Shown: one piece after another, positions 6,875 through 44,215 of the stretch
Layout of the letters: each line of letters starts with the position of its first letter
How positions within the stretch are numbered: position 1 is the stretch's first letter
Source: an uncultured Spartobacteria bacterium
GTDB lineage: Bacteria > Verrucomicrobiota > Verrucomicrobiia > Chthoniobacterales > Chthoniobacteraceae
Length of the DNA stretch: 48,188 nt
Assembly: GCA_903901425.1 (NCBI GenBank)
Contig: CAIURC010000049.1
Location: 1 to 48,188 of the forward strand
Direction of reading: 5' to 3'
The notes under the pieces: generated by a model
Seen by the model: only the letters and a program-made list of their open reading frames with translations
Database searches by the model: none
What the model was told of the DNA's origin: nothing
Program-made: the position numbers and the translations under genes

Positions 6875-9800
6875 TCAGGGAACGCGGACGCCGCCAACAG
6901 GTTGCGACAGGCGAGGGGTGAGTTCGACGGTGAAACTCCCGCCGGTTTCTCCCCAGCCCAAACCGATGCCCTGTTTCTGGAACACCACCCCCTGCAGCGG
7001 GAGGCTGGACCGGACACCCGGGATCCGGAAACCCGCCCCAAAAGTCCCATCGGCGGTTTCAAACCGGAACCGGACGTCACTCACGTTCGGGGTGTTGGCT
7101 GGAACCAAGACCGCGTTTCCATCCAACCCGAGCTGGAGCACCCCCTCGAACCGGCCGCCGAGCACCGCCGAATCCAAATCCATGTCCACCGCGAGGCTGG
7201 GCAGGCCTCGCCCACCCTCAGGCGCAGACACCGGCAAGGCCGGTCCAAAAACGGTGTGCGGATTGGCCGGCTCCGGCCGACCCGCACGAGGCCTCACCGG
7301 CGCCACATAACGCGACCCGAGGACCACCGGACGGATCTCCTCCCGGAGCCCCGCACCTGCCGGAGGTAGAACCCAGAGCGAAAAATCGCTCACGACGTCC
7401 GCTCCGTTTTCTTGGCCGCCGAACTGGAGTCGGCCAGCAACGAAACCGTTCTGTCGATCGAACCCCTGATGAAACGGGACACGGCCTGAGGCCGAGAGTC
7501 GGCTCCCGCAGGAAACCGTGCCATACCTGAGCCGACCCACCAGAGTGACGCTCCCGTTGGGGGAGACGCGCAATGCACCGGTACCATTCAGGCTCCCGGC
7601 CAGCCCTCTCAGATCGTTACTCTGGCCCGGCCCCAAAGTCGGTTCCCTCAACCATGCCAGCGTGTATCGACCGTTGTCCGATCTGGGATCCAGAACCTCA
7701 GAAGGTACCCGCCGCATCCCCGGTGGCAATGCCTTGGCATCGCTGAACACGCACTTTTCCGCCGTGATTCTGGAGTACAAAGCGCGGGTCTCAACCGCCT
7801 TGAATTCGCCGCGCAGGACGGGCCGCTCGCCGTTCTCATCGACCCACAGGCCGAGGCCGCCGAGTGACTCCCGCTGCCCAGGGTGGATGACGCGCAGTTC
7901 TAAAGAGCCTCCCGCAAACAGGACAGTGCCATCCCTCTGAACGGTGCCGGTAAAAGGAACCTCGGCCCCCGCAATGCAGACGCGCCCGGAGAGGGCTCCG
8001 GAGGCAGACACCGTGGTGCTCAGGATTCCGGTTCCCCGGCTGAGTTCAAAGGGCCGGTAATCTGGGGAAGCAGCGCCGAACCCCTCGAGAGTCGCAGCGG
8101 GCTCCAGAAGGCCGTCATACGTTCCAGCCAAATCAGGCCGCTGGCGAACAAACCGGAACCGCCGGACCACAGGCTCGGACACCATCCCATCCCCGCCCGT
8201 AGCAGTCACCCGGACCTGATTCTGACCCGGCTCAGGGATCAGGGTAGCCATCCACGTGACACCCGTTCCGTCAGGCAGAGGGACCAGGCTCGCAGCCACC
8301 GGCATTTCACCGTTCAAAGCCACCTCCACCCGCTCCACTCCAGCCATATCCATGGCCGTGCCTTTAAACAGGACCGATTCCCCGGAAACCGTGGCTCCGC
8401 TGGCTGGAGTCACCACCGTCAGTTGCGGGGGTTGATCGTCGGCATTCAGGAAGGTCAACAGCGCACTGCTGGGTGCCCCCAGTACGGCCCCTCCCGCAGG
8501 CCCACTCAAGCGCACCTGAATCTTCAACCCGTTGGCCGGAACCCGAGCGGTTCCATGGAGCAGCAATTTGAAATACTTGGGCTCCACTTCGCCATCCTCC
8601 CACAGAAACATCCTGCTCTCGGGAGGAATCAGATAGTCCGGCCCCTCCACAGCCATGGCGCTCGCCGTTTCCAGCATCACCGCCACGCGGCCCACGCTTC
8701 CGGCACTCCGATACACCGGAATGGAAACCTCCTGCTCCACTGCCTGCGGCCGCAGAAACCGGTACACCGGCGCGCCAAAGGCCAGTACCCCGCGCGCATC
8801 TGGCGGATTCACCCGGATCCGCACCGTGTTCACCGGCCCGATCAGCGCTCCTCCCGTGGGGTTCTGCAGTCTCAAGTCGATCGTCCAACCCCGCGCTGGA
8901 ACGGCTTGCCCGGCGGCAAACCGGACCCGGACCAGCTTCGGTGCGACTTCCCGATCCTGCCAGAGCACTGGCCCCTGAGTTTCAAGGAAATAACTGCCCG
9001 CAGGAGCCGTCCCACCCGCCACGGCCACCTCCACTCCTGCCGACCCCACGGAGCCCTGATTCCGCACCACGGGCACTTCCACAAAGCGATCCACAGTCCC
9101 ACTGGACTGGATCTCGAGCTTCTCCGCACCGAAGTTCAACATGCCCGGATCCGCCTGAACCAGCGTCACCACCTGAAGGAGGTTTTCACCGGGAGCTGCA
9201 TCCTGGAAACCCTCGAGACCGAACCGCAACTGCTCGCCTCCAGGCCGGATCTGCACCCCGGCCTTGACGGCCACCAGATAGGTCTTGTCCAACAAATCTC
9301 CCGGTGCCCAGCGCAATTCAGCCGGAGCCGGAAGGGTCCGGAAGGCGCTCTCCGGAAGCGTGCTGGAAATCGGAACGATCCGCACCGCGCCCCCGGACTC
9401 CCCGCCCCCGAAACGGCGCACGGTGACTGCGAACAGGAGTTCACCGGGAAACTTTGGCTGCCGGATCCCCTGCGAAGTGAATCCGATCTGATCCACCACA
9501 CGAATCCGGGCGGACTCGGAAACCACGACTCCCACCACGTTGCGAACCGACACCGCGTAATCCCCTTCCGCGGACTCGGTGAGCGGATTGAAAACCAGAA
9601 CGGAACCGGTGGCTCCGTCCATTCGCACCCCATTTCTGGACCATTGGTACTCCAGAGGTCCGGTTCCGGAAGCTTCCACCCGGAGTTCATAGGATTGGCC
9701 CGGCATCAACACGGCGCCCACGGGCTGGGTGCTGATGCTCACAGGATCATTCACCTCCAACCCAGCCCAATCGCTGGTCTTGCGGGCAAACTCGTTGAAC

Positions 9801-12800
9801 ACGGCTACCCAATAATCGCCCTGATCCCCTTCGGCCACCGCAGGCAGCACCAGACTGGGCCGGATCTGATCAGGAAGAGGTTCGCCATTTTTGTACCACT
9901 GGTACTGTAGAGTCCCCATTCCCTCTGCACGCACCGCGAACGTGACTGGGGTCCCAGGGTTCACGGTCTGAGACTCGGGTTGCTCAAGGATCTCGAGGAT
10001 CGGATCCACCGTCACCGTGAATGGACTTGAAGTGGCAACGCCCGCCGGGTTTGTCACCTCCACACGGTACTCCCCGCGGTGCGCATATGAAACCTGCGGG
10101 ACTGTGTAGCCGGGAGAGGTCGCGCCCCGGATCGGCTCTCCATCCTTGGTCCAGCGATAGGTAAAGGGACGTGTTCCCTGCGCAGAGGCCCTGAGGGTCA
10201 ATGCACGCCCTTCCGAAACGCGCCCGCCCACCGGGCTCGAGTCCACCGTCACCGCGGAGGGTGTCACCCACTGGAAAACAACGGGCTGGCTCTCCGAAAC
10301 AATCCCCCCATCCGAGACGGCCCGAAGCTGGATAGCCCGGTACCCTTGGGGAAAAACTACCTCTCCATTCCAAACCCCAGACACAAAGTTGGACGTGACG
10401 GCCGGGGTCACAGCGACCTCCACACCCAGACGGAGATTGGGAGCTTCAAAAACGCGGCCCGCCCCTGGGGTGTTGCCAGTCCACTCCAAGGGATCTCCAA
10501 AGGACATGGTCCGCGTTATGCTCGGCCGCCGTCTCGTGCCGTCAGTCGAGCACGCCACGACTGCCCCGCGCGACTGGGGTTCCGCACTCTTGAAGCTGAA
10601 ATCCACCATCAGGTTGCTCACTCCGTTATACTCAAACGGAACTTGGAACTGGAAGGGGATCCAACCCGGGGTCGAGATCGTCGTGTCCTGCTGGAAAACC
10701 GTGACCCACCCATCGGTTTCCCAGACCACCGGCTCCACAAGCTCCGTATGCCGCATCCGGATCGTCCATCGGCCCACGGTACCGGGAGGGGGCGAGATAA
10801 AGTTCAATGCCAGTGAATGGATTTTTACCGGGCCGCCCACCTGGCCCGCTGTGTAAACACACTGGGTTCTCTGAACAGGCCACCATGTGTTCAAGGGAAA
10901 TGTGGAACTGCTCCTGGATGGGGTGCCCGGAGCCACAGAAACGTCCTGCTGCACACGGCCCGACAACCGGACTGAACCCGAAAAGCCCTCCACCCGGTTG
11001 TTGGCCTCATCCAGAGCCTCCAGCCTCACCGCCGCCCCCTGCTCAGGACGCTGCTCTCCCTCCGGCAAAGTCCACCCAAAGTGGTCCAAAACCCCGCCCC
11101 CCACATCGAAGGTGTTGGTCTGCGCCGACAACCCGCCCGGTCCCGCGAAACGCACAGAAACCCCAGTGTCCGAATTGTTCACCACCACGCTCCCACTCCA
11201 CACTCCCGCGGTGAAACTACCGCTCCCCATCCGCGTGACCGACTGAGTTCCCGACGCACCCACCGCCGATACCTCGAAGGGGGAATTGTAAGCACTCGCC
11301 ACCGCCCCGTTCGTGTCCAAGGCTGTCACCGTGATGGGAATCGGCACCCCGCGAATCTGGCGCGCCCCTACCGGCGAGACGGTGAATCTGTAGATGTCAT
11401 CGTCCAGAACAAGCACGTTGCGCTGAGCCGATTCAAAACCCGCTGCAGAGGCCGTAACCCCCACAGTGACAGGACCATCGGTGACATTGTTGTCCCTGGC
11501 GCTCAGAACAAGAGTCGCAGCCGTGGCTCCCGCGGGGATCGTGACCGATTGCGGCACCGAAAGGCGCTCAGAATTGGCCGAATTGAGCGACACAGTCAGG
11601 TCCTCGCGGAGCGTCCCGGAAATCGAAACACCCACAGACAGACTGCTCCCCTCTGAGATCTGCTGCGGAAAGCCTGTAAACGTGAGTTGTCGGCTTTCAT
11701 TGTCCAGAGCTGAAATGCTGGCCGTCCCATCCTGCCAGCCCCACACACTGGCGCGCACCCCACTCACCACAGATCCATCAATCCGGATGTCGTTCACCGC
11801 CCGGATCGGAAACTGCGCGGACTGCGCGCCTTGGGGCACTGTCACGGTGGCGGGGACCCAGACATCCTCCGGCACAGTGGCCACCAAGCTCACCTGAAGA
11901 GCCACCTCCGCAGGCACGCTCAGCATCAGAGTACCCTGCCCGTCCGCCCCCCCTTCCTGCAGCGTTTCCGGCAATCGCATGGAAAGGCTGCCCCCGGCCT
12001 CGTTGTCCCGCACAGCCACCACGGCCGCTGCGCCCCGGCCCCCTGGAACGCTGGCCTGCAGAATCACTCCCGTCTCTCCGTCCACCCGTTGATTCTCCAA
12101 AACCTTCAGATCAAAGACCACAGACCGGTTCCCCACAGGGATTGTCACCTGGTCGGGTACCTGCAGGCGTTCCGGAGCCGAAGAAGCGAGGGTCACCCCG
12201 GTATCAGCCAATGCTGGCTGACTGAGGTTCACCCGGGCTGAAACCCAGCCGTCCCCTTCGGAAACCGAAACCGGCACCTCCCATCCCAGCACCTGTTCGT
12301 CCGGAGATTCGAGGCTGTACCGGCTAAAATCGCTTTTTACAAAACCACTCGGGATACCGCCTCCCCGAGACAACCCAATCAACCCGCCAACCGCATCCAC
12401 TCCCAGGCAGGTGATCCGGATCCGGCCGTCCTGATAAAGCTCCACCTGAAAACTGTTCCTTCCCGCCCTTCCATACTCACCCATCTCCTGCCAAGTCACC
12501 GACACCCGGTCCGTCCATGCTTTCCACGACACCACCGAACCCTCCACCGGAATCAGGTCACAGAACACCCCGGACACCCTCGGTTGCGCAAAATGGGCCC
12601 CGTAGGATTCCACATACCCAGTGTCGCTTCCGGCAAACGTCAGGTACCCGTTGCTCCCCACATAGATTTGACCGTAGGGACTCCCGTATACGCTGGCGGT
12701 CCTCCCGGCCGGAAGCGAGACCCGTACACTGGTGTCGTCCGTCATCGGCAACACCGTGCCTCCCGCCGGATCCGAAGGAAACTGCTGCACCACCGTCCGC

Positions 12801-15436
12801 TCCACCCGGTAAAAGGACGACGAACCGTCCGGCACAAACATCCAACTCTGAAAATCCGTGTCATTGGCCGAGCCGGCTCCAAACGCCTCGGTGTAGGCAT
12901 CCCGGTTCCCCACGGAAAGAGACACGTTTCTGAGGATCTCGACGCCGGAACCCAAATTTTTGAATCCGACTTGTCCGGAATAACTCCCACTGGGAAGCGT
13001 GGCGGATTCGGGCCTCAAACCCAGCACCACCTCCGTGCTCCCCCCGGGCGCCAACACTCCTCCCACAGGGGACACTGCCAGCCAGGAGGCCGCACTCGCT
13101 GCGGTCCATCGGAGTTCATTTTGCGCATCCAGATTATTGAGCACAAACCGTTGCGATGCCGTCTGGGCACGCGTGGGGGGTTGGATCTGGAACGTTACCC
13201 CTTCCAACGGTGTCACCCGCAGGGAATCCGGCAGGTCAAACGCCTCAACAACCCCCGTCGACGTCGAACTGGCCGGCACCCGTGCGCTGGCTCCCATCCC
13301 ACGCTTGGCAAACCCGCGCCAGAGTTCCCTCTGATTTGCCCCCCGGGTCAGGTTCAGGTCTGCTTGAAGAATAGCGTCCCGGGCCTGGAGGAAGGTCGGG
13401 TTGACCGGGCTGAGCTTCATTCCATCGGTCACCAGTTGAAGCATCAACTCGTTTCCCACTTGCCAGCCGTGCTTGGCAATCAGGTTGGCCCGAGCTTCCC
13501 ACAGTGTCACACACCACACTTCCCCCATGTAATGGACCTGAGCCCGCCCCCCCTGGGTAGGGTCAATCTGCTTGAGGGTATGCGGATTTTTGGCCAGATC
13601 GGTGGTGTAGGGATACGTCCGGATCCCGCGGTAATAGTTGCCCGTCAGGTACCCCCCGGCCGCATAATTCCCCCCCGGTTCGTCCCCGGGTTCGCTCAGC
13701 AGGCTCAACCCGTAGAAATCAGACCATCCCTCCCCCATCCCCGCCGATTGCAGGGCGTTGATTCCGACTCCGCCTCCGACCAACCGGTTGCTGAGCCCGT
13801 GAGTGTACTCATGGAAAACCACCTCCGCATCCAGGGAAGAATCCCGGCCCGGCGTTGTTGTGGTAAACACATACATTTGCATCCGACCCGAAAAACCATC
13901 GCGGGGTGTGGAAAAATTGGCGTTGTTGGTTCCACCGCCGTCCTGCACATCTGCCAGCACGGCATCCAGTCCCGAACCGCCCCGGCCAAAATTGTCCTGC
14001 TGGAAATTGCCCGCCGTCTCCGTGAATCCGAGCGAGTACAGGCGGTCATGATACCAGTTGCACAGGTAAAAAAGCGTCGTCATTGCCGCCTCGCGGTACT
14101 GGGCGGGCTCCTGATCCAGCGCCATCGGAAAATCAAAAACCCGGTCCTGACTAACCGCATGCGGCCCCACCCCGTACCCGGGGTTGGCATTCGAAAGATC
14201 CAGATGCACGTCGACATTGTTCCCCGCTGTCCTGCTCACCCCCTCCGGAATCCATCCCTGCGGCGAGGCCGTAAGATCCAGCGCCTCCCATGTCACCACA
14301 GACCGCGGCTGTTGCGGTGGCTGCGTAGTCTGCGGAGTCGCATGCCCCGGGGACATCGGCTGCGGACTGTCCAGCGGTTTCCGCGTTTCCGGGTTCACAT
14401 GCACCCGGTAACTGGCCGGACTCAGGTCGCTCGTCAGAGAGGTGCGGATCAGCAAATCCCCAGATTCCGCATGCACCGCCGCCCGGAACATCTCTTCCCG
14501 GCTCATCCAGGTCACTTCCCAGGCCAAAACCAGACGCTTGGACCCCATCGGCACCCACACCAACTCCGCCCGCGCATCCGACACCTTCTCCCCCTCCAAC
14601 TCCTGCATCCTCCGCGCTCCAACCGCCTCTGGCTTGACCCAGACTTCCGCCGCACTGATCCCCTCGCCCACTCCCGCCGAAGCCAACTCCAACGCACGCG
14701 CCACAGTCACCGGCGGCTTGCGCTTCAATGCCTCCCGCTGCCCGGCATTCATCCCGGTCGCAGCTGCAGGGTCCTTCAGAAAATGGCTACCCACCCCCAG
14801 AAGTTCCCCCCGCGATGTCAGGTTCGCCCGGAAAACTGTGTCGTAAAGCGGCACCCCGTCCAGCTCCTGCTGCCATACCAGGGTCCGCAACCCGCTCCCG
14901 GCGGTCACGTCCTCCCGCGCCAGTAGCACTCCATTCTCCAAAACCTCGGAACCATATCCGAACAATTCACGGTTCTCATCCAAGAAGCGGCGCAGCCCAC
15001 CCTCCTTCTGCCCTTCCTCTGGCCCCGTCAAAAAACTGCCCGCCGCCATCACATGGCTCGCAGCACCCGAAACCGGATCAAACTGCACATCCACCCCGGG
15101 AACCTTTCTGCGCAGCGCCTCCACGGCACGCTCTTGGACTGGTGTTGCCGACCATACGCCTCCCCCACGGACATCCAAATTCGGCAGATGCTTTTCATGG
15201 TCATGCCCGTCCCCATGTTCAGAAGGCGCACCCTGCGCATCAACCAACACGGGTTGACCCGGGCTGAAGCCCGGACCGCGATCCGGTTCAGGGGAGCGGT
15301 TGCCGGAATTGTTTTCCACCGCCAGCGTGTTTTGAAACCCGGAACGGGATCCGGAAGGGATGCCGCGGAACAGGAACCACGCCAGACACACCAGCAGAAG
15401 GCCAGCAATCAGAAACTTCAAATTTGCGGGGCGCAT
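6875..15436 (-). CDS. Giant secreted M36 (fungalysin-type) metalloprotease with multidomain tail
   Basis: A 2853-residue exported enzyme. Residues 1-27 form a signal peptide or anchor. A propeptide (FTP/PepSY-like, about 95-330) precedes the M36 catalytic domain (about 340-735). The zinc site is HEYTH (H542, E543, H546) with E569 in GMGEGWSDF as third ligand. After it come a BACON-like domain (about 738-845), a nidogen-like region (about 900-1045), three Calx-beta-like repeats of about 95 residues (1055-1347), three Ig-like domains (about 1727-1982), Calx-beta-like strands (about 1990-2330), a Bacterial-Ig-like domain (2336-2430) and a C-terminal region (2437-2843) that resembles the end of the product of 26563-32820. 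Purine-rich AAAGAGAGAG precedes the ATG. Family members are secreted proteases cleaving extracellular protein; most are under 1000 residues, so the tail is unusually long. Confidence 0.92.
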   Translation of the reverse strand: MRPANLKFLIAGLLLVCLAWFLFRGIPSGSRSGFQNTLAVENNSGNRSPEPDRGPGFSPGQPVLVDAQGAPSEHGDGHDHEKHLPNLDVRGGGVWSATPVQERAVEALRRKVPGVDVQFDPVSGAASHVMAAGSFLTGPEEGQKEGGLRRFLDENRELFGYGSEVLENGVLLAREDVTAGSGLRTLVWQQELDGVPLYDTVFRANLTSRGELLGVGSHFLKDPAAATGMNAGQREALKRKPPVTVARALELASAGVGEGISAAEVWVKPEAVGARRMQELEGEKVSDARAELVWVPMGSKRLVLAWEVTWMSREEMFRAAVHAESGDLLIRTSLTSDLSPASYRVHVNPETRKPLDSPQPMSPGHATPQTTQPPQQPRSVVTWEALDLTASPQGWIPEGVSRTAGNNVDVHLDLSNANPGYGVGPHAVSQDRVFDFPMALDQEPAQYREAAMTTLFYLCNWYHDRLYSLGFTETAGNFQQDNFGRGGSGLDAVLADVQDGGGTNNANFSTPRDGFSGRMQMYVFTTTTPGRDSSLDAEVVFHEYTHGLSNRLVGGGVGINALQSAGMGEGWSDFYGLSLLSEPGDEPGGNYAAGGYLTGNYYRGIRTYPYTTDLAKNPHTLKQIDPTQGGRAQVHYMGEVWCVTLWEARANLIAKHGWQVGNELMLQLVTDGMKLSPVNPTFLQARDAILQADLNLTRGANQRELWRGFAKRGMGASARVPASSTSTGVVEAFDLPDSLRVTPLEGVTFQIQPPTRAQTASQRFVLNNLDAQNELRWTAASAASWLAVSPVGGVLAPGGSTEVVLGLRPESATLPSGSYSGQVGFKNLGSGVEILRNVSLSVGNRDAYTEAFGAGSANDTDFQSWMFVPDGSSSFYRVERTVVQQFPSDPAGGTVLPMTDDTSVRVSLPAGRTASVYGSPYGQIYVGSNGYLTFAGSDTGYVESYGAHFAQPRVSGVFCDLIPVEGSVVSWKAWTDRVSVTWQEMGEYGRAGRNSFQVELYQDGRIRITCLGVDAVGGLIGLSRGGGIPSGFVKSDFSRYSLESPDEQVLGWEVPVSVSEGDGWVSARVNLSQPALADTGVTLASSAPERLQVPDQVTIPVGNRSVVFDLKVLENQRVDGETGVILQASVPGGRGAAAVVAVRDNEAGGSLSMRLPETLQEGGADGQGTLMLSVPAEVALQVSLVATVPEDVWVPATVTVPQGAQSAQFPIRAVNDIRIDGSVVSGVRASVWGWQDGTASISALDNESRQLTFTGFPQQISEGSSLSVGVSISGTLREDLTVSLNSANSERLSVPQSVTIPAGATAATLVLSARDNNVTDGPVTVGVTASAAGFESAQRNVLVLDDDIYRFTVSPVGARQIRGVPIPITVTALDTNGAVASAYNSPFEVSAVGASGTQSVTRMGSGSFTAGVWSGSVVVNNSDTGVSVRFAGPGGLSAQTNTFDVGGGVLDHFGWTLPEGEQRPEQGAAVRLEALDEANNRVEGFSGSVRLSGRVQQDVSVAPGTPSRSSSTFPLNTWWPVQRTQCVYTAGQVGGPVKIHSLALNFISPPPGTVGRWTIRMRHTELVEPVVWETDGWVTVFQQDTTISTPGWIPFQFQVPFEYNGVSNLMVDFSFKSAEPQSRGAVVACSTDGTRRRPSITRTMSFGDPLEWTGNTPGAGRVFEAPNLRLGVEVAVTPAVTSNFVSGVWNGEVVFPQGYRAIQLRAVSDGGIVSESQPVVFQWVTPSAVTVDSSPVGGRVSEGRALTLRASAQGTRPFTYRWTKDGEPIRGATSPGYTVPQVSYAHRGEYRVEVTNPAGVATSSPFTVTVDPILEILEQPESQTVNPGTPVTFAVRAEGMGTLQYQWYKNGEPLPDQIRPSLVLPAVAEGDQGDYWVAVFNEFARKTSDWAGLEVNDPVSISTQPVGAVLMPGQSYELRVEASGTGPLEYQWSRNGVRMDGATGSVLVFNPLTESAEGDYAVSVRNVVGVVVSESARIRVVDQIGFTSQGIRQPKFPGELLFAVTVRRFGGGESGGAVRIVPISSTLPESAFRTLPAPAELRWAPGDLLDKTYLVAVKAGVQIRPGGEQLRFGLEGFQDAAPGENLLQVVTLVQADPGMLNFGAEKLEIQSSGTVDRFVEVPVVRNQGSVGSAGVEVAVAGGTAPAGSYFLETQGPVLWQDREVAPKLVRVRFAAGQAVPARGWTIDLRLQNPTGGALIGPVNTVRIRVNPPDARGVLAFGAPVYRFLRPQAVEQEVSIPVYRSAGSVGRVAVMLETASAMAVEGPDYLIPPESRMFLWEDGEVEPKYFKLLLHGTARVPANGLKIQVRLSGPAGGAVLGAPSSALLTFLNADDQPPQLTVVTPASGATVSGESVLFKGTAMDMAGVERVEVALNGEMPVAASLVPLPDGTGVTWMATLIPEPGQNQVRVTATGGDGMVSEPVVRRFRFVRQRPDLAGTYDGLLEPAATLEGFGAASPDYRPFELSRGTGILSTTVSASGALSGRVCIAGAEVPFTGTVQRDGTVLFAGGSLELRVIHPGQRESLGGLGLWVDENGERPVLRGEFKAVETRALYSRITAEKCVFSDAKALPPGMRRVPSEVLDPRSDNGRYTLAWLREPTLGPGQSNDLRGLAGSLNGTGALRVSPNGSVTLVGRLRYGTVSCGSRLSASGRVPFHQGFDRQNGFVAGRLQFGGQENGADVVSDFSLWVLPPAGAGLREEIRPVVLGSRYVAPVRPRAGRPEPANPHTVFGPALPVSAPEGGRGLPSLAVDMDLDSAVLGGRFEGVLQLGLDGNAVLVPANTPNVSDVRFRFETADGTFGAGFRIPGVRSSLPLQGVVFQKQGIGLGWGETGGSFTVELTPRLSQPVGGVRVP
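11396..12274 (-). repeat. Three Calx-beta-like protein repeats in the M36 protease
   Basis: Residues 1055-1146, 1150-1247 and 1250-1347 share the same plan: a strand of the SEGxxxSVxVSL kind, a PxxVTIPxG turn, strands xxFxxxAxxNxxxDG, and a final acidic DNE/DDD. This is the Calx-beta-like repeat common in extracellular proteins of PVC bacteria. Acidic ends suggest calcium binding, which is an inference. Confidence 0.7.
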
Positions 15437-15780
15437 GACTCTCTCTTTGTAAGTTAATTTTTTTATTTGCCGAGCTTCTTTTCAGACCGCCAGGCCCCGC
15501 GCCGGGAAGCATCGGGCATTCGGCCTCGGAGGAATCCCCCCAACTGAACAGGGCTGATAATATTCCCATTAATAAAATTCGCAATGTAAATACATGGTGG
15601 TTTCAAACCCCTCATCCAGACACTCCTTCCCCGCCTTCACTCCACAGTCCGACCGCCGCCCAATCCGGAATTCCCGAGAATCCGTACCGCAAATCGCACC
15701 GTCTCCCCCGGTTGTCCCGTTCCCATTCTCCCACCCAGAATCGCCTTGACCGACCCGCAGTCCGCCGCACCATCGGGACT
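15437..15780. promoter_or_regulatory. Divergent intergenic region, AT-rich
   Basis: This gap separates the start of the giant protease (minus) from the start of the kinase (plus). It is much more AT-rich than its surroundings, with runs such as AATTTTTTTATTTG near 15457-15470 and TGATAATATTCCCATTAATAA near 15553-15573. Both genes probably have their promoters here. I could not assign exact -35/-10 pairs. No hairpin or third gene was seen. Confidence 0.5.
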
Positions 15781-18700
15781 GTGGAATCTTGGTCCCTCAC
15801 CCTGAAAGGCCGCCTCGGCGTGGTCCGCCGGATGGAATCCGGCGAAACCGAGGTCATCCTCGGCTCGGGCAGCGATGCGGACGTTCTCCGGGTTGAGGGC
15901 GAGGGGGTGGTTGCGCGGCACGCGAGGGTTCAGGTCACACGGCACGGACTCCGGATTGAGGATCTCGCCGGCGGAATCCTCTTAAACGGCGCTCCGGTCT
16001 CCGGAGAGGCGCGCGCCGACTACCCGGCATCCGTCCAAATTGGAGACAGCACACTGGTGGTTGAACGTCTCAAAGACACCGAGGTGACGGTCGCATTTCA
16101 TGCGCCAGAAACCGTCGCATTTTTGGCGCCGGACCCCGGGGCCCCAACCTGGAGTGCCGACTCCGCGATTGCCACAGATGCGCCGCTCACCGGGAAATAC
16201 ACCCTTCAGAGGGAACTCGCCCGGGGCGGAATGGGCCGGATCTATTTTGGCGACGACCCCCAACTCAAGCGGCAGGTTGCTGTAAAAGTGAGCGACCTTG
16301 CCCAGAACGGAAGGGATCTTCGGTTTGTGCAGGAAGCCGAGGTGCTCGCCCACCTTGCGCACCCGAACATAGTCCCCATCTACTCGATTGGCACTGATGC
16401 CGCGGGACGCCCTTTCTACGCCATGAAACTGGTCCAGGGCCGCACGCTTCAGGCGGTCCTCACCGCGCTCAAGAATGGCGACAAGCAGACGGCTGCGGAA
16501 TATCCCAGACCTGCCTTGCTGACCATCTTCCGCAAGATCTGCGATGCCGTGGCCTTCGCGCATTCCAAGCACATCCTGCACCGAGACCTCAAACCCGAGA
16601 ACATCATGGTGGGCGAGTACGGAGAAGTGCTCGTCATGGACTGGGGCCTCGCCAAGCCCCTTGGCCGGGATGGTACCCTCCTTGAAAGCCGCGGGAGCGT
16701 CTCAGGCGATCCGGGCATGACCATGGAGGGGGAAGTGATGGGCACTCCTCAGTACATGTCACCGGAACAGGCCGCCGGCATGGTCGCAGGACTTGACCCG
16801 CGTTCCGACATCTATTCCCTGGGTGGCATCCTCTACGCCATCCTGACTCTCCATCCTCCCATCGAGGGCACCACACTCGAAGAGGTCCTCTCCAAGGTCC
16901 GGACGGGCGAACTCCGCCCCATGCGCTCCGGCCACAGTTCTGCAAAAACTCTGACCGGGAGCCGCCCCCCCCCAAAAGACCACGTTCCGGAGCCGCTCAA
17001 GGCGGTGACGCTCAAGGCCATGGCCAAGGACCGGACAGACCGCTACCCGACCGTCGAGGCTCTGGCCGCGGACATCGCCGCCTACCAGAATGGTTTTGCA
17101 ACCAGTGCACTTCAGATCGGCCTTTCCGGACAACTGCTCCTTCTCATTCGGCGCAACCGCGGCATCACCACTTCGATCGCTGCCGCACTCCTCATCCTGT
17201 TCGCACTCTCCGCATGGTTTGTGCTCAGCCTTCAGTCGAAGGAACGCGCTGCAACCCGCGCCGCGGAAATTGCTGAAAGGGAAAAAAGTCGCGCACTCGA
17301 CGCCGAGAACACTGCCCGTTCGGAAAAGGATCGTGCGATTGAATCTGGGCGGTCTGCGGAGGCGGCCTCCGCCAGAGCCCGGGTCGCGCTTGCCGAAGCC
17401 TCGTTTCGCGCCGGCGACTTCACCGCAATGGCCGAGGCTTTGGCGGCGTGCCCGGAGGAATTCAGGGACCAGACATGGAATTACCTCGCCTCAAAAAAGG
17501 ACAGCTCCCTCGCCCCGCTGAGCCTCCCGGGATTTGAAAAACCCGTCGCGATCCGGGCGGTTCCCGGGGAACCCGGCCAGTTCGCCCTCGGAACCGAAAA
17601 CGGCTCAATCGGCTTTGCGGATGCTTCCTCCCGCTCGCTTCTGCGGACCGTCCAGACCGGAAAAGGCCTCCGCGACCTGCTCTTCTCCGGGGATGGGCAA
17701 ACCTTTGCAGCGGTTCTCGGCTCCCGCGACGTCTCGTTTCACGACACCGCTACGGGTGTGCTCCGGAACAGAATCACCCTGCCTGCGGACATTGTAGACC
17801 TGCAATCCAGCTACCCCAGCGCGGAAACCATTGCGTTGGACCGAACCGGCAAACGACTGGCTGCAGTGGTTCGGTTCGCGGACAAGCCCCGCTCTCTCAC
17901 CCTGCTCCTCGCAGGCTCCACCGATGGTGCCATCCAGTGGAAAACTGAGTTACCCTTCCTCCACGGCATTCAGTTTGACTCCGAAGACAAACGTCTGCTG
18001 GGAATCACCGGCGGATCCGCCCGCTACTTCTGGACGTTCGACGCCGACACGGGAAACCGTCTCACCGAGTCGCGCATCTACGGTCTCTGCCAGGCCCTTC
18101 ACCCCGAAGGCAAGATTCTGGCTGTTGGCACCCGCTCAGGAGAGGCAGAGTTCTTCGACCTCGCCGCAGGCACACGTCTTTGGAAGGCGAAGCTTCACTC
18201 CGGCCAACTCACCGCGATGGCGTGGTCCTCCGATGGACACCTCCTCACCATGGGCACCGAGGGCAAACAGGACGACAGCCGTTGGCTCCTGAAACTCTGG
18301 GCCCCAAACACCCTCGCGCTCCGCGCTGTCTTCTCCGGCCTCCATTCCAACACACGCACCCGGTGGGCTTACGACCCTCTCAGTGGACTCCTTCTCACAA
18401 GGGAAAACCCGCCACGCATCTGGCGCATCCCGGCCGGCCGCGAACGGGCCCGCATGGTTCACACCTCAGAAACTGGCTATTCCGGAGCGTTCCTTTCCAA
18501 TAACGTCCTCCTTGCACGCGACGGAGGATGGGGCCTTGCCTTCTACGACGTCGGCACCCCAGGCGAATGGACCCGGCTCAAGTCTGCGCCCGTCTGGAAA
18601 GACCGGTATTCCGCCGTCCACGCACAAACCGGCAGGATCGCCATCACCGGCGTTGATGCCCCCCTCACCCTCCACCTTTTTTCCACTGAGGACACCGAGG

Positions 18701-19359
18701 CGCGCGAACTGTTTGCACACCCTCTGCCCTCCTCCATTTCCGACCTGCGCTTTCATCCGGAGGGCGATGCCGTGGTCGCGGCGCTCAACAACGGGACCCT
18801 CCAGACCTTCTCCGTTCCCGCAGGGCAACTTCTTCTCAATCTCCAAGGCAAATTCCGCAAAGCGCTTTTTGCCGGCCCAGAACACCAACTCGTAGTATCC
18901 CAGCAGGGCGCCGGCCCCGCCGAACACCAGATTCTCCGGATCCACGGAAAGACAGGCGCCATCCTCAACTCCACAACCTGCCGTTTTGAGCTCCAGGCGA
19001 TCGCAGTCTCCCAGGATCAACGCCTCCTTGCCCTCGGAGGCACCGACCACAGCATCCATTTTCTCGATGCACAAACCCTCGCGGAAAAGCCATCCCTGCG
19101 GGCGCACGAGGGCGAAATCGGTGCACTCGCCTTTCATCCCTCCCTGCCCATCCTTGCAAGCGCGTCATCCGATGGCTCCATCAAACTCTGGAACCATGAG
19201 ACCCGAACCCTGCTCGACCACTTCATCGGACTCAACGGAATGCCTGTCACCCTCGCATTCAGCCCCGACGGAAGACTTCTCTTTGCCGAGGCACAGGAAA
19301 ACACAAACCGCCTCTACGATGTCAGCCACCTCTCTCCGCGCTCCGAAAGCGCCAAATAG
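15781..19359 (+). CDS. FHA-domain Ser/Thr protein kinase with transmembrane segment and propeller-like sensor
   Basis: The 1192-residue product has an N-terminal FHA-like phosphothreonine-binding domain (about 8-95), then a Hanks-type kinase (about 137-440). Kinase motifs are complete: glycine loop ARGGMGRIYFG, VAVK lysine K169, HRDLKPEN with catalytic D269, and DWG at 287-289 in place of the usual DFG. A membrane helix lies at about 463-484, followed by a charged coiled-coil (KERAATRAAEIAEREK). The rest is a WD40/PQQ-like propeller region, ending in a clear WD repeat (SASSDGSIKLWN). Inferred topology: cytoplasmic kinase, propeller across the membrane. I chose the GTG at 15781, directly before the FHA strands, over a TTG at 15712; neither has a good ribosome site. 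The FHA-before-kinase order and the DWG are common in this kinase group in PVC bacteria. Confidence 0.9.
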   Translation: MESWSLTLKGRLGVVRRMESGETEVILGSGSDADVLRVEGEGVVARHARVQVTRHGLRIEDLAGGILLNGAPVSGEARADYPASVQIGDSTLVVERLKDTEVTVAFHAPETVAFLAPDPGAPTWSADSAIATDAPLTGKYTLQRELARGGMGRIYFGDDPQLKRQVAVKVSDLAQNGRDLRFVQEAEVLAHLAHPNIVPIYSIGTDAAGRPFYAMKLVQGRTLQAVLTALKNGDKQTAAEYPRPALLTIFRKICDAVAFAHSKHILHRDLKPENIMVGEYGEVLVMDWGLAKPLGRDGTLLESRGSVSGDPGMTMEGEVMGTPQYMSPEQAAGMVAGLDPRSDIYSLGGILYAILTLHPPIEGTTLEEVLSKVRTGELRPMRSGHSSAKTLTGSRPPPKDHVPEPLKAVTLKAMAKDRTDRYPTVEALAADIAAYQNGFATSALQIGLSGQLLLLIRRNRGITTSIAAALLILFALSAWFVLSLQSKERAATRAAEIAEREKSRALDAENTARSEKDRAIESGRSAEAASARARVALAEASFRAGDFTAMAEALAACPEEFRDQTWNYLASKKDSSLAPLSLPGFEKPVAIRAVPGEPGQFALGTENGSIGFADASSRSLLRTVQTGKGLRDLLFSGDGQTFAAVLGSRDVSFHDTATGVLRNRITLPADIVDLQSSYPSAETIALDRTGKRLAAVVRFADKPRSLTLLLAGSTDGAIQWKTELPFLHGIQFDSEDKRLLGITGGSARYFWTFDADTGNRLTESRIYGLCQALHPEGKILAVGTRSGEAEFFDLAAGTRLWKAKLHSGQLTAMAWSSDGHLLTMGTEGKQDDSRWLLKLWAPNTLALRAVFSGLHSNTRTRWAYDPLSGLLLTRENPPRIWRIPAGRERARMVHTSETGYSGAFLSNNVLLARDGGWGLAFYDVGTPGEWTRLKSAPVWKDRYSAVHAQTGRIAITGVDAPLTLHLFSTEDTEARELFAHPLPSSISDLRFHPEGDAVVAALNNGTLQTFSVPAGQLLLNLQGKFRKALFAGPEHQLVVSQQGAGPAEHQILRIHGKTGAILNSTTCRFELQAIAVSQDQRLLALGGTDHSIHFLDAQTLAEKPSLRAHEGEIGALAFHPSLPILASASSDGSIKLWNHETRTLLDHFIGLNGMPVTLAFSPDGRLLFAEAQENTNRLYDVSHLSPRSESAK

Positions 19360-26562: not shown

Positions 26563-29500
26563 TCACTTTTTGAGGATCTCGAAATGGCCGCTCTCCGAAA
26601 CCCCGACTGGGTTGGCCCTGGCAGGGGTATACAGAAAGTACCCGGCTGCGCTTTGACTCTTCTGCAGAACCGCCCCCACCAGATCCACAGTCACAGCCCC
26701 ATACTTGAACGAAGACCGCCCCAGAAGCCCAGTCTTGGTATCGAACTTCACGCTCAATCCCTCCGCCCCGATTTGACCCGACGTCACTCCAGCCACCGTC
26801 ACGGCATTGGCAGAACTGATCCGTGCGTCATTCGACGTCTGGCCGAGCCCCCCCCGGGTCCGGACCAACAGGCTGCTTCCTTCCGTGGTTCCCGGGATGC
26901 CGAGGATGGTGCTCGTCGTCGGAACCACGTACTTGGAAGCCGCCAACCCAAGGTGGATCCCCTTCCGCCACCCCTGCCGGTACAGCATGGCACCGGATAC
27001 TGAAGAAGGCCGGAACCAGAGGAGATCCGCACTTGCGTCCGTAGTCTCGGCATCCGGATCGAACTGGACGTCGCCCCAGATAAACCCCCGCCCCCCGTAA
27101 AGCTGGACGTACAGCGGAAGAACGTTGTTGCTGGAGAGCGAATTTGAGTAAGACACAGCGGTTCCATCGGCCAATTTTCCCACCACACGCACCACGCCCG
27201 CCTTCGAAATGTTCATCGTGGCAGTTCCGGAACCCCGAGGATAAGCAGACTCCGGATACCCGTTGTTGGGCCCCTGCACCGCACGGAATGCCGCCGTGTA
27301 ATTCCCCTTGTCCGCAGCACCCAACAGATCAGTCGGCACATTGCGGAAAGGTGCCACCGGACTCACCTTGTCCGTGTACAGGGATTGGTCCGCCACCAGA
27401 TTCGCAAATGTCACTGGATGCAATTCGTCGGGATCAGTGGTTAAGCGACCCACAATCCTCCGGTTTTCAGAATCCAGCTCGAGCGCCAAAAATCCCAGCG
27501 ACATGTCATGGGGTGACCCGGGCTTGAACAACTCCAGCGCACTGGTCGCCATCTCGCCATCGCCGAAAACGGCTGTTCCATCGGAGAGGAACAATCCTTT
27601 GATGGCGAGGCGGAGCCCAGCCATCGTCACCGTCCCCGTAAAGCGTTGCCCTGCCGTCACATCCAACCGGATCAAGCCATTGTGGTTCAGTGAAAGTCCG
27701 CCGGTAAGAAGCGCAAGTTTCGCATCCTCCTCCGCATCCGCCTCAAACAATCCATTATAAACCCCAACGGTCTCAGGACTCGCAATCGAGACCGTCACGG
27801 ACACGCTGGCCGTAGACACATTCTGATTTGCATCCGTGGCAGACACCGCAATCCTGCTCACGCCGTTCTCCAGCCCCTCCAAAGTGACCCGATACCCCCC
27901 GTTCTGGAGCACCATCGGAACCGGGGTTCCTCCGTTGACACTCGCACGGACTCCGAGAACTCCGACAGGGTCGGTGGCTGTGGCCTCCACACTCACAGTC
28001 GCCAACCCGGAAGCGGAGATTGCAGCCCCAGCGCGGGGTGTTCTGATCGCCACCACAGGACCCGACCGATCCACGGACTCCGTGATCGTAAAGATCGCTG
28101 TGCCCGTTCCGCCCACCTCCGCATTGACGGTGGAAGTAGTGACCTTGAGTTCGATGGTCTCCGCCGGAGAGCGGTCCGGATCCTTCTTTACCACCACCGG
28201 GATGGTCTTTGTGCTGGAATCCCCGTTAGCCCACACCACAGTTTGAGCGACCACGTTGTAATCAGTCTCAGCGGTCGCAGTGCCGCCCTCAGAGGTGATA
28301 AGCGCCCCCAAATTCCCATCCGTTCCTCCGGTCCGGGTGAGGGGCACTAGATACGTGGCTGTCTCACTGCCAGGCGCAGGCTCAGCACCTGCATACCGCG
28401 CCTGGCTGAATGAAACCGTGCCGGGAACAAAGTCGGCCACCGTCACCGACGCAGAAGCGTCCGTGGAAAGGACGTTCGTCTGGCCCACCGGACTCAGAAC
28501 CACTTGGAACGTTCTCTGGGCTTGGATCCCTGCCCGATTCAAAACAGTGACAGGCACCGTTTTCGTAGTCTCATTCAGCGCAAATGAAACGGTGAGGTTC
28601 GTCAGAGCGGAGTAATCCGCACCCGTTGCAGTGCCATTCTGCGTGTTCACGGCGACCGTTGCTGCGGTCAACGCACCCTGCCGCTGAATTGTGAGCGACA
28701 CAGTCCCCGCATTCTCCGAAACGGTATAGCTCTTCGGTGAGAAACTGAAGGTTGGATCCGCCTGCGCAACCGTGATTTGGAAGTCCGCAGACACCCCCAA
28801 AGCCGTAGCGCCCGTGCCGTCCTTGGCAGTCACGCGGACCTGCAAATTTCCCACGTCCCCAAGTGCAGGGGTGCCCGTGAAGGTCCGGGTGGAGGCATCA
28901 AAGCTCAACCAAGAAGGCAGCGGAGAGTCGTCCGCCCTAGATGCACTGTATGAAAGAACGTGATTCTCAGGATCCACAAAAACCCCCGCAGGAACCGTGT
29001 AATTGAAGGCAACCAACCCCTTTCCATTTTGGTCTTGAATCGCGCTGGTCACAAAAGGCGCCTGATTGTCGGGCCCCGCCAGACGCACCCGGTACGCAAG
29101 GACGAGGGTGTCATGATCGAGAGTCGCGTCATAGTCCTGAAGCGCCCCATTCCCATCCAGGTACTTTCCTGTCCTGCTCTGAAAGTCGTTGTCGTTTCCA
29201 ATGAAGAGAAAATAGTCGTTCGGGTTGGCGGCGTCATTGGCTGAGAGAAGCGCCATCGCCTCCCATTTCTCGCTCACCGTGTTGGTGTCGCCAGGAGCAG
29301 CATTCAGATTGAGACCAAATTTTTCCACCTCCGCAGTCGTACCGCCGAGCTTGCCGATCATGTTGAGCGCCTCGGTGTAAGCCATCGGCGTGATGGACGG
29401 AGCCAATGCCCCGCCGCTCAGAATCGTGGCCCCGTCCGCCTCATACAGCCCATCGATGTTGGATGCAGACGCCGTGTCCGCGAGAAGGACCGACTTAAAC

Positions 29501-32500
29501 ACAGGCGCACCGCTGGCTCCGCGCCCGTTGCCGTCTCGGGATAGAATCAGGATCTGGTGGGAGTTGAGCGCCACGATTGCGCTCTGGGCCGCCGTGCGAT
29601 TCACCGTTGTTCCGTTAGTGGTCAATCCGGTGGAATCCACCCTCGGCAATTGGATGACATACTGTTCCACCGGATCGGAGGGCGTATCTGATGCGGTAAT
29701 GTCGTAGACTAGCATCCGGGTGTTGAACCGATCTTGGTTTCCCGTGGGGCTCAAGCTGTCCTGAACCGTTGCGCTCTGAAGCAGCACAAACAAACGGCTG
29801 CCGTCAGGACTCTGTGCAATGCCCTCAATCCCTTGGTTGTCCCGGCGTCCACTCACCGGCGTGCCATTGAAATTCCGGGTACCCGCCGGGTTGGATGGCA
29901 GCAGCGCCGCAGGAAGCAGCAACTGACCGTCCAACTGTTTTGCGCTGTCAAAATGATAAACCGAGGCCCCGTACTCATCCCCCACCCAACCCGTGCCACC
30001 CTTTCCGGAACGACGGTCAAAAACCAACCCCTCGGCATCCACCGTCAGGCGCCCAGTAAAGCTGCCGTCCGATTGCACCTGCGTGCCCGTGGCAATCGGC
30101 ACCTGGGTACCGAACAAATTACCCACGCCGGTGGCCAGCAATCCGGTTGTAAAAATCGGCGCGCTTCCAGCATTTGAGTCGTGATCGTAGGTGAACCGGG
30201 TCGACGCCACGTAAGTCATCGCGATCTGGTTCTGCTGCAAAGTCGCTGTCCCGGCTGTGTACGGGGTCAGCGTAAAGTCAAACTCGTTGATCCGAGCCGC
30301 ATAGTTCGAGAACGTGGTGCCTGCGTTGTAGCCGCGATCTGGAAGGAAATGGAACCGGCCACTGTAGGTGCCGTCCCCATTCTTCCGCCACCGGCTCACC
30401 TGCATATCTGACACCGACCCCACAGACTCTCCGGTCACGGGATCCTTCATGGTGCTTGGAACTCTGCCGACCCCCTGAAGACCCAGATTCACAAAACTTG
30501 TTCCATTCAAGGTCACACCAGCGGGGTTCCATGTCACCGTGTTCGGTTCGAGAACAAGTCCATTCGCACTCGAAACTGGAGTTCCCAGAGCGACCGTCAA
30601 AACCGCGGTGGCGCTGTCCACTGTCCCCCGGCCATTGCTGACACGGACCCAGTAGCTGGCACTTGAAATCAACACCGGCGTGGTGAAAGTCGCAGAAGTT
30701 GCATCAGGCAATGGTTGAGCGGTGTTACCACTCGTGCCCGAGTACCACTGATAGGTGAGCGTGGGCGAACCTGACGCTGTCACTGATAGCGCTGCGGTGC
30801 GGCCCGAAACCACGCTGGAACTCGCCGGTTGGACCGTGATCGACGGAACCACGTCATCATTCTGTATGGTGCCGGTACCCACGGCAGTCCCGATCTCCGT
30901 CACCCCGGTACTGTTGATGAGATTCGACAGCGTCACCACCACCGTCTCATCCGCTTCCACCGCGATGTCGCCATTCACCGTGACCGAAATGTTCTGCACA
31001 TCCACTCCACCGACCGTGAATGAAAGGGTCCCACTAGAAAGCACGTAGTCAGTCCCAGCACTCGCAGTCCCACCCGTCACCGCGTAGTCCACGGTGAATG
31101 CAGTTCCGTTCCCAGTCCGAGTGACCGGCAGGTTGAGGGTGGTGATCCCGCTGTCCCCCTCGGCAACCGTGCCACTCCCAATCGCAACCGAATCCGAGAG
31201 TTCGTACACAGTCAAAGTGTTGGAAACCTCGTTGGCGGCAATCAGGAGAGGCCGACCGCCCGGCGCATCCGCCGCGCTCACCACCACCAACCCCTCCGGA
31301 CTGGTGTCGCCCGTCCTGCGCAATCCATTCACGAAAACCGGTGCAAGCGGATTGCTCACGTCAAACACCAGGACCAGACTCGAGCGCTCCAACCCGACAA
31401 ACGCGTATGGCCGGCCGCCAATCACAGAAACCGTGACTCCCTCCGGCTCCGGCCCCTTGTTGTCGCTGCGCGTGTCATCAAAGGACGTCGCAAACTGCGT
31501 GGACACGATCACCTCGATCATGTCTCCGCTGTCAAAAACCATCTTACCCGTCGAATCCAGGATGCTGAACGAACGCCCTCCGTAGCTCAGAATCTCGTCC
31601 ACATCCCCGTCCCCGTCTGTGTCTCCGCGCAACCCGGAGGCATTGCTCACCACCAAACGTCCCAGAACACCCAGCGCCTTCAGGGCCGCAGCATTCGGAA
31701 ACCGCGTGCTGTCCAGGACATACCCTGCGTTCCCGACTGTGGTCGTCTCGTCTGGATTCAGAAAGTCATTCCGGTCATCTCCCTCGTTCGCGATCACATA
31801 GTACGTCTGCCCTCCAGAACTGAACGCGGCGATCCCGTCCGGCATGTACAATCCCTTTACAGGGTTACCCGTCGTGAGGTTCACCAATGCCGTGGCACTG
31901 GGGCCGTCCCGGTCGCTGAAATCGTGGCGGCCCGTTGAGAAATCCTTTTTCCCAAGTGCCACCACATTGGTGAACGCCCCGGCCACAAGATCCAAAATCC
32001 CGATGGCGTTCGCCTCCTGCAACGTCACAAACGCCTTGGTGCTGTCCGGGGATACCGCAATGTATTCCGGTTCAAAATCTGTCGAGGGCACTCCATTGGC
32101 GTAAATCCGGACCCCCGCCTCCCTCAACGCCGCCACGCTGGCTGCACCGTCCCAGGCTCCAAATCCTGCGGTTGCCACGGATGGGGTCACGAAACCGCCG
32201 CTCACATCGATGATGCTCACAGTTCCTGCCGCTGTGTCCGGGATCGTTGCACTCGTTCCATCCAGTTCTCCCTCGTTGGCCACAAGCACCTTGTTTCCGT
32301 CCGGGGTGAACATCACGTGATCTGGGACCACGCCCACTTGGACCACGCCCAGCAGTTCCAGCGTGTCTGCTCGGCAAAAAACCACATGCCCATTATTGGT
32401 TTTTGGTGAGTTAATCACTGCAGCCGCCAGAACGCTGAACCCGCCTCCTGTGCCCTTCCGGACTGCGATGGACGAAATGTCATTGCTGGTGACCCCGCTC

Positions 32501-32820
32501 GCTGCCGCAAGAGTTGCCGGAGCAAGGGTGCTCACGAAAACAGGCGCAGAAGGGTCCGTCAGGTCCACCACCTGCACACCCGTCCCGGATGCCGCAAACG
32601 CCCGCTTCGAGACGGGATCAAACGCCGGAATCTCCGATCCCGCGAGCGAAACGCTCCCCTTGACCGTGGAAGTCAGAGTCGGATTCGGCAAATAACTCTC
32701 CTGCGCGTTTACCCTGTGACCTGCAAAACCCAACGTTCCCATCACCGCGAAGAACATGGCCCTCAAGACAGTCCCCGCACGGACATTCTCTTTTTTTGCG
32801 ACGCAATTTGATTTTTTCAT
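26563..32820 (-). CDS. Secreted double-propeller protein: choice-of-anchor I plus phytase-like esterase, with Calx-beta and Ig domains
   Basis: 2085 residues. Signal peptide 1-40 (cut after HRVNAQ). Residues 43-542 form a choice-of-anchor-I-type propeller, including GKKDFSTGRHDFSDRDG and the calcium-loop-like DTDGDGDVDE. Then come a Calx-beta domain (546-656), an Ig-like domain (658-744), a phytase-type esterase-like domain (about 755-1248, with DAEGLVFD, NQGIEGIAQSPDGSRL and a late EKWEAMALL), a putative-Ig/cadherin-like domain (1255-1350), two Calx-beta domains (1354-1463 and 1465-1580), a Bacterial-Ig-like domain (1585-1680) and a C-terminal region (1685-2083) resembling that of the giant protease. 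The phytase-like family is associated with extracellular phosphate-ester turnover; activity here is not proven. No PEP-CTERM-like tail is present. The ATG at 32820 has no obvious ribosome site. Confidence 0.88.
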   Translation of the reverse strand: MKKSNCVAKKENVRAGTVLRAMFFAVMGTLGFAGHRVNAQESYLPNPTLTSTVKGSVSLAGSEIPAFDPVSKRAFAASGTGVQVVDLTDPSAPVFVSTLAPATLAAASGVTSNDISSIAVRKGTGGGFSVLAAAVINSPKTNNGHVVFCRADTLELLGVVQVGVVPDHVMFTPDGNKVLVANEGELDGTSATIPDTAAGTVSIIDVSGGFVTPSVATAGFGAWDGAASVAALREAGVRIYANGVPSTDFEPEYIAVSPDSTKAFVTLQEANAIGILDLVAGAFTNVVALGKKDFSTGRHDFSDRDGPSATALVNLTTGNPVKGLYMPDGIAAFSSGGQTYYVIANEGDDRNDFLNPDETTTVGNAGYVLDSTRFPNAAALKALGVLGRLVVSNASGLRGDTDGDGDVDEILSYGGRSFSILDSTGKMVFDSGDMIEVIVSTQFATSFDDTRSDNKGPEPEGVTVSVIGGRPYAFVGLERSSLVLVFDVSNPLAPVFVNGLRRTGDTSPEGLVVVSAADAPGGRPLLIAANEVSNTLTVYELSDSVAIGSGTVAEGDSGITTLNLPVTRTGNGTAFTVDYAVTGGTASAGTDYVLSSGTLSFTVGGVDVQNISVTVNGDIAVEADETVVVTLSNLINSTGVTEIGTAVGTGTIQNDDVVPSITVQPASSSVVSGRTAALSVTASGSPTLTYQWYSGTSGNTAQPLPDATSATFTTPVLISSASYWVRVSNGRGTVDSATAVLTVALGTPVSSANGLVLEPNTVTWNPAGVTLNGTSFVNLGLQGVGRVPSTMKDPVTGESVGSVSDMQVSRWRKNGDGTYSGRFHFLPDRGYNAGTTFSNYAARINEFDFTLTPYTAGTATLQQNQIAMTYVASTRFTYDHDSNAGSAPIFTTGLLATGVGNLFGTQVPIATGTQVQSDGSFTGRLTVDAEGLVFDRRSGKGGTGWVGDEYGASVYHFDSAKQLDGQLLLPAALLPSNPAGTRNFNGTPVSGRRDNQGIEGIAQSPDGSRLFVLLQSATVQDSLSPTGNQDRFNTRMLVYDITASDTPSDPVEQYVIQLPRVDSTGLTTNGTTVNRTAAQSAIVALNSHQILILSRDGNGRGASGAPVFKSVLLADTASASNIDGLYEADGATILSGGALAPSITPMAYTEALNMIGKLGGTTAEVEKFGLNLNAAPGDTNTVSEKWEAMALLSANDAANPNDYFLFIGNDNDFQSRTGKYLDGNGALQDYDATLDHDTLVLAYRVRLAGPDNQAPFVTSAIQDQNGKGLVAFNYTVPAGVFVDPENHVLSYSASRADDSPLPSWLSFDASTRTFTGTPALGDVGNLQVRVTAKDGTGATALGVSADFQITVAQADPTFSFSPKSYTVSENAGTVSLTIQRQGALTAATVAVNTQNGTATGADYSALTNLTVSFALNETTKTVPVTVLNRAGIQAQRTFQVVLSPVGQTNVLSTDASASVTVADFVPGTVSFSQARYAGAEPAPGSETATYLVPLTRTGGTDGNLGALITSEGGTATAETDYNVVAQTVVWANGDSSTKTIPVVVKKDPDRSPAETIELKVTTSTVNAEVGGTGTAIFTITESVDRSGPVVAIRTPRAGAAISASGLATVSVEATATDPVGVLGVRASVNGGTPVPMVLQNGGYRVTLEGLENGVSRIAVSATDANQNVSTASVSVTVSIASPETVGVYNGLFEADAEEDAKLALLTGGLSLNHNGLIRLDVTAGQRFTGTVTMAGLRLAIKGLFLSDGTAVFGDGEMATSALELFKPGSPHDMSLGFLALELDSENRRIVGRLTTDPDELHPVTFANLVADQSLYTDKVSPVAPFRNVPTDLLGAADKGNYTAAFRAVQGPNNGYPESAYPRGSGTATMNISKAGVVRVVGKLADGTAVSYSNSLSSNNVLPLYVQLYGGRGFIWGDVQFDPDAETTDASADLLWFRPSSVSGAMLYRQGWRKGIHLGLAASKYVVPTTSTILGIPGTTEGSSLLVRTRGGLGQTSNDARISSANAVTVAGVTSGQIGAEGLSVKFDTKTGLLGRSSFKYGAVTVDLVGAVLQKSQSAAGYFLYTPARANPVGVSESGHFEILKK

Positions 32821-43927: not shown

Positions 43928-44215
43928 GGCTTCAGATTTCGGGGCGGTTTTAAGCACTCCGCCGACGGGAAAAATGCCAGAAGGAACCTTAAATCCGGGT
44001 GAAGCCGCTGCCAAACACCCCCGGACAACGAGTCGATCCGGGCCGGCTCAGCCCAAAAACACGGCAGGCGTGGGCCGTCGCCGCCCCCCTCCTTGACCCT
44101 CTGCTTCGCGGCTCGCCGCCGTGTTGACGAGCCCCCAATTTTTTGAGTTCGCACCCTGCAACATCCGGGCTTGCGCCGCTCGGTAGGCTCGCTGCCGGCG
44201 TGCAGCTTCCGAGGG

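Follow-up and report, generated by a model that had tools for sequence, protein, structure and literature searches.

Two giant genes in the 48,188-nucleotide stretch of DNA analyzed here (the window) raise the question of why proteins with unrelated catalytic parts should end in the same way, and what such an ending might be for. ORF A (6875–15436) encodes an M36 protease of 2853 residues and ORF B (26563–32820) a choice-of-anchor-I/phytase-like protein of 2085 residues; both frames are uninterrupted, and all coordinates given for A and B refer to the minus strand. The Peptidase_M36 catalytic domain of A spans residues 371–718 (13283..14326; E 9.4e-118), and the N-terminus of the protein is hydrophobic, without a clear cleavage motif. 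A domain search places a choice_anch_I domain at residues 61–541 of B (31198..32640) and a phytase-like domain at residues 821–1213 (29182..30360; E 3.4e-29). A preliminary description of this DNA had noted that the two C-terminal tails follow one plan, and we could locate every landmark that it listed: a G-rich FTG block, a DENG/DSEN strand, a P-x-R-x-VP motif and a closing GVVFQKQ or GAVLQKS. The motif GTYDGLLE, starting at 8125 in ORF A, opens tail A (residues 2438–2853, 6878..8125), which continues to the stop codon, and GVYNGLFE, starting at 27765 in ORF B, opens tail B (residues 1686–2085, 26566..27765).

By sequence comparison, tails A and B are homologous. The last 416 residues of A and the last 400 of B align end to end, with 27% identity over 438 columns in BLASTP (89.7 bits, E 6e-24) and 60.8 bits (E 7e-21) in phmmer, and the profile alignment of the two tails that the preliminary description had suggested gives an hhalign probability of 97%. 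Over their whole length the tails match tail profiles with 186–294 bits (A) and 361–382 bits (B). Tail B scores 360.7 bits (2e-109) and tail A 185.9 bits (2.4e-56) against a profile of 22 tails, all from other genomes; the rows of this profile come from a joint alignment in which A and B were also present. Chance similarity is ruled out by 1000 shuffled tails, which reach at most 8.5 bits against the same profile, compared with 186–361 bits for the real ones.

The similarity between A and B does not stop at the start of the tail. In a full-length BLASTP comparison, residues 2090–2848 of A (6893..9169) align with residues 1349–2073 of B (26602..28776; E 2.5e-25), a stretch that comprises a stalk as well as the tail and that in B is a Calx-beta stalk by domain search. 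The length common to A and B is therefore ∼730–760 residues, whereas divergent members of the family share 315–430. The shared region of ∼400 residues first proposed thus holds as the core of the divergent members but is too short for this pair. An Ig-like domain had likewise been placed before both tails; A has a significant Big_7 match immediately upstream of its tail (residues 2337–2406, 8219..8428; E 7.8e-06), but the region in B has no Pfam match, although it aligns with A.

The preliminary description caught part of a larger picture. In the genome from which the window comes (5.1 Mb in 224 contigs, 96% complete), we found 24 tail matches at E 1e-5, on ORFs of up to ∼2870 residues. Five tail genes of this genome are cut by contig ends (L035, L036, L038, L039 and L047), and the copy number may be an underestimate because similar copies may break the assembly. 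Counting this genome, 17 of 38 near genomes carry the tail domain, with up to 39 copies each. It is present in all four genomes of the genus that were searched (this one and three others) and in 12 of 20 other genomes of the same family, and is nearly absent from the rest of the order (1 of 14 genomes). Across the phylum, 19 of 288 sampled genomes have it, this one included, with several other families among them. These counts come from a profile search of genomes; a scan of genome contigs with a peptide pattern, which is too strict for a census, returned one named relative, in a Chthoniobacter flavus MAG, which places the window in Verrucomicrobiota. A viral origin was also considered and rejected, as no relative turned up in two scans of viral contigs.

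The proteins that carry the tail have little else in common. Besides the M36 protease and the choice_anch_I/phytase-like protein, tail-bearing N-terminal parts include an FGE-sulfatase (twice), a BspA LRR protein, a subtilase (S8), a GDSL lipase with cadherin-like domains, CotH/LTD (lamin-tail), an M12B-like (reprolysin-like) peptidase, a trypsin-like protein with FG-GAP, MBG repeats, RCC1, a DUF5122 propeller and CAP. By a simple hydrophobicity scan rather than a trained signal predictor, nearly all complete members have a signal-sequence-like N-terminus, in which visual inspection mostly shows no lipobox. The idea that the tail moves as a unit is borne out by its occurrence at the end of ∼20 proteins of this genome, with mostly unrelated N-terminal parts. 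In one pair, an FGE-sulfatase (L032) and an LRR protein (L034), the last 950–966 residues are 67% identical and nothing is common upstream; the restriction of this identity to the C-terminal part is direct evidence for recombination of a cassette of stalk plus tail. As a C-terminal domain of ∼385–430 residues, the tail is mobile and occurs on large proteins of many functions.

The position of the domain is close to invariant. Among frames with a readable stop codon, 55 of 63 tail copies end no more than 10 residues from the stop and 59 of 63 no more than 40; the first profile was built solely from tails of this genome that run to the C-terminus, and in other genomes, where the copies of distant families were found with a profile to which they had not contributed, 37 of 42 copies end within 10 residues. 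Four copies lie more than 40 residues from the stop. L074 and L085 each have two tail copies in tandem, of which the first is the one concerned and is not C-terminal; in L100 the copy is split, with a gap between modules 1 and 2, and its first half is the one counted; and in L047 a further C-terminal region follows the tail. A further copy, L048 (G000:C97:1-6000), is split over two overlapping frames of 546 and 251 residues and results either from a frameshift in the gene or from misassembly.

Alignment divides the tail into three modules. Module 1, with the consensus G-x-Y-x-GL ... TGsFSG ... GG ... F-x-G ... GTL, occupies 7676..8125 in A (G-Y-x-GL ... G-x-hS-G ... F-x-G; boundary approximate) and 27376..27765 in B. 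Module 2 has the consensus G-x-YT ... PQGsG ... G-x-LADGT ... P ... LY ... G-x-h-x-G ... W-x-RP ... YPsGW ... GSxY, and lies at 7289..7675 in A (NGRYT ... GxLxxGT ... W-x-x-P ... GSxYV; boundary approximate) and at 26920..27309 in B (KGNYT ... GKLADGT ... WFRP ... ASKYV). Module 3, L ... TG-x-h-x-GSF ... F-x-GV-x-x-QK ... GhFL ... SG-x-V, closes the tail at 6878..7288 in A (tG-x-F-x-G ... GVVFQKQ ... G-rich end) and at 26566..26919 in B (tG-x-x-G ... GAVLQKS ... end). Some members (L042, L043 and L045) end after module 2. Modules 1 and 2 may be related to each other, with an hhalign probability of 74% (E 2.8e-5).

Structure prediction points to small beta-barrels. Modelled alone with AlphaFold2, module 1 of tail B (modelled stretch 27376–27780) is predicted to be an antiparallel barrel of eight to nine strands (pLDDT 81, pTM 0.74), and a barrel is predicted by homology for module 1 of tail A. 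The model of the whole of tail B, made from three sequences, has a pLDDT of 46.8, so that its fold matches serve as a weak hint only; module 2 is barrel-like in it, and module 3, for tail A as for tail B, is without confident structure. In VIA-align, the first matches of module 1 are the barrels of NHBA, TbpB, HphA and fHbp, with Z from 8.0 down to 6.3 and rmsd of ∼3.5–5 over ∼100 residues, and module 2 in the poor model finds fHbp, HphA, NHBA and TbpB together with designed barrels; Z of 6–8 is the level of a common arrangement and speaks to fold class, not to homology or function. On these models, the tail would consist of two beta-barrel modules, probably related to each other, and a beta module that closes it.

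What would such a domain do at the end of so many proteins? That dozens of giant proteins, signal-bearing but otherwise unrelated, end in the same domain is most readily explained if this domain is something that the cell envelope reads. By analogy with known systems we favor, by a modest balance of probability, the interpretation that the tail serves, as a C-terminal domain, to sort proteins or to anchor them at the surface, and sorting or anchoring in the wide sense is at least as probable as that and perhaps appreciably more so. The signal peptide would take the protein through Sec into the periplasm, as the signal-like N-termini suggest, where the C-terminal domain would fold. An outer-membrane machine for exit or anchoring would then recognize the folded tail as a unit, and the enzyme or stalk would end up either exposed at the cell surface or released from it. 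Anchoring, secretion and substrate binding had initially been put forward side by side; the strict C-terminal position, the high copy number, the signal-like N-termini and the absence of a common substrate favor sorting or anchoring, and leave substrate binding as the less favored part of that proposal.

Several known sorting systems share elements of this arrangement. Export of T11SS cargo across the outer membrane is directed by eight-stranded barrels at the C-terminus of the cargo, and the Slam cargo proteins TbpB, fHbp, NHBA and HphA resemble the tail proteins in placing a small C-terminal beta-barrel behind a variable N-terminal effector part (PMC12282271). The tails differ in that they probably have two barrels and a third module, occur on proteins of up to >3700 residues and belong to Verrucomicrobiota rather than Proteobacteria, with a sequence identity to T11SS barrels of ∼9–18%. 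None of 12 tails matches the TbpB_B_D or lipoprotein barrel models of Pfam at E 0.1, and the T11SS outer-membrane protein SlipAM/DUF560 (PF04575) has no match in this genome and is present in 3 of 38 near genomes. In one genome that also has tails, a SlipAM-like gene (L101, G022:C139) directly follows a small ORF with a lipoprotein-like N-terminus, and the two possibly form a separate T11SS pair.

The T9SS export signal, too, is described as a folded C-terminal beta domain (PMC4804311). Like the tail, the T9SS C-terminal domain (TIGR04183 and relatives) is a conserved beta domain that ends many unrelated proteins with Sec signals, in many copies per genome, but its model has 72 positions compared with ∼385 for the tail. 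TIGR04183 has no match in this genome, whereas the positive control matched; no NCBIfam or Pfam model of a T9SS sorting domain matches the 12 tails; and SprA_N (PF14349), of the T9SS translocon, has no match in the 38 genomes, nor in the positive-control set. A genome of the same order has one match to a T9SS-type C-terminal domain (G034:C68:1396-1617, E 2.1e-11), with no SprA_N match there. On these searches, neither T9SS nor T11SS is supported as the partner of the tails.

PEP-CTERM proteins consist, at their C-terminus, of a short motif, a transmembrane helix and a basic end. The PEP-CTERM/exosortase system is comparable to the tails in being a C-terminal tag on many secreted proteins, in Verrucomicrobiota too, but the tails are large beta domains that end in a beta-strand-like SG-x-V-x-h and a short polar end. 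Two exosortases are present in this genome, none was detected in four other tail-bearing genomes (G006, G012, G016 and G020), and exosortases also occur in genomes without tails, so that among the 38 near genomes their presence does not track that of the tails. With its distribution uncoupled from the tails, exosortase is not supported as a partner either. The C-terminal barrel of autotransporters is likewise a beta domain ending a large exported protein; the predicted strands of module 1 are short, however, and its barrel small and soluble-like, and no Pfam match to the autotransporter (T5SS) barrel family was obtained.

A more specific form of the sorting interpretation, which we put forward as a tentative proposal, is that Verrucomicrobiota have a dedicated export or display route in which the twin-barrel tail would be the folded signal for an outer-membrane machine, following the logic of T9SS and T11SS without their canonical components. 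If true, this route would give some species a surface proteome of some 20–40 giant proteins. The common tail would mark the likely cargo set of one system and predict an extracellular location for many unannotated proteins.

The most serious alternative, which we regard as possible though short of probable, is that the tail serves for surface anchoring alone: proteins would leave the cell by a general route, for example a type II system, and the tail would then bind LPS, an outer-membrane protein or a glycan of the surface. It is a narrower form of our preferred explanation, and the confidence placed in the two overlaps. All 38 genomes have secretin homologues; these do not discriminate tail-bearing from tail-less genomes, and an exit route may therefore exist without a tail-specific translocon. 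The Ig, Calx-beta and cadherin stalks would fit display away from the surface.

It appears unlikely that the tail instead acts as a ligand- or carbohydrate-binding module and targets many enzymes to a single substrate or matrix outside the cell, its barrels holding a ligand as lipocalins and fatty-acid-binding proteins do. Small ligand-binding barrels predominate among the Foldseek matches of module 1, with the spirocyclase OlmO, fatty-acid- and retinol-binding proteins and nitrobindin on top, but they are weak (best E 3.6e-4). Moreover, proteases, a lipase, a phytase-like protein, LRR, RCC1 and Ig-only proteins offer no common substrate, and the tail almost always stands at the extreme C-terminus, unlike binding modules, for which any position in a protein is usual. 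Least likely of all is that the tail is a structural cap that stabilizes long Ig/Calx-beta stalks, has no sorting role and has spread by duplication and recombination: A and L032–L037 do have the stalk as well as the tail in common, so that part of the spread is that of a larger cassette, but divergent members share only the last 315–430 residues, and neighbors as different as a subtilase (L040), CAP (L077), an LTD/beta-helix (L046) and a DUF5122 propeller (L063) precede the tail.

The sorting or anchoring interpretation would thus apply to a domain that is so far unnamed and that may work like known C-terminal sorting domains. No named domain already covers it: none of 12 tails has a match in Pfam (E 0.1) or NCBIfam, and we found no solved structure related to the tail by sequence. 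A literature search found neither a description of the domain nor an account of how the giant proteins of Verrucomicrobiota are exported and attached. As no model in Pfam or NCBIfam matches it, the tail deserves a family model of its own. In some Verrucomicrobiota, giant exported proteins are encoded by dozens of genes, and the common tail offers a handle on their export and attachment.

Other large genes lie around A and B in the window. Between the two giant genes, 15712–19359 (plus strand) encodes a Ser/Thr protein kinase with a C-terminal WD40-type beta-propeller region, and 20439–23168 (minus strand) encodes an MGH1-like/GH63-type glycoside hydrolase of 909 residues, adjoining GNAT and DUF3419 genes. 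In an ORF of 3413 residues at 33773–44014 (minus strand), YHYH, two Lcl_C, sulfatase, Ig, metallophosphatase and cadherin-like domains are joined in one protein. The C-terminus of this protein (GTGLSNLVVFALLG...) differs from the tail, has no match and may be a second C-terminal type.
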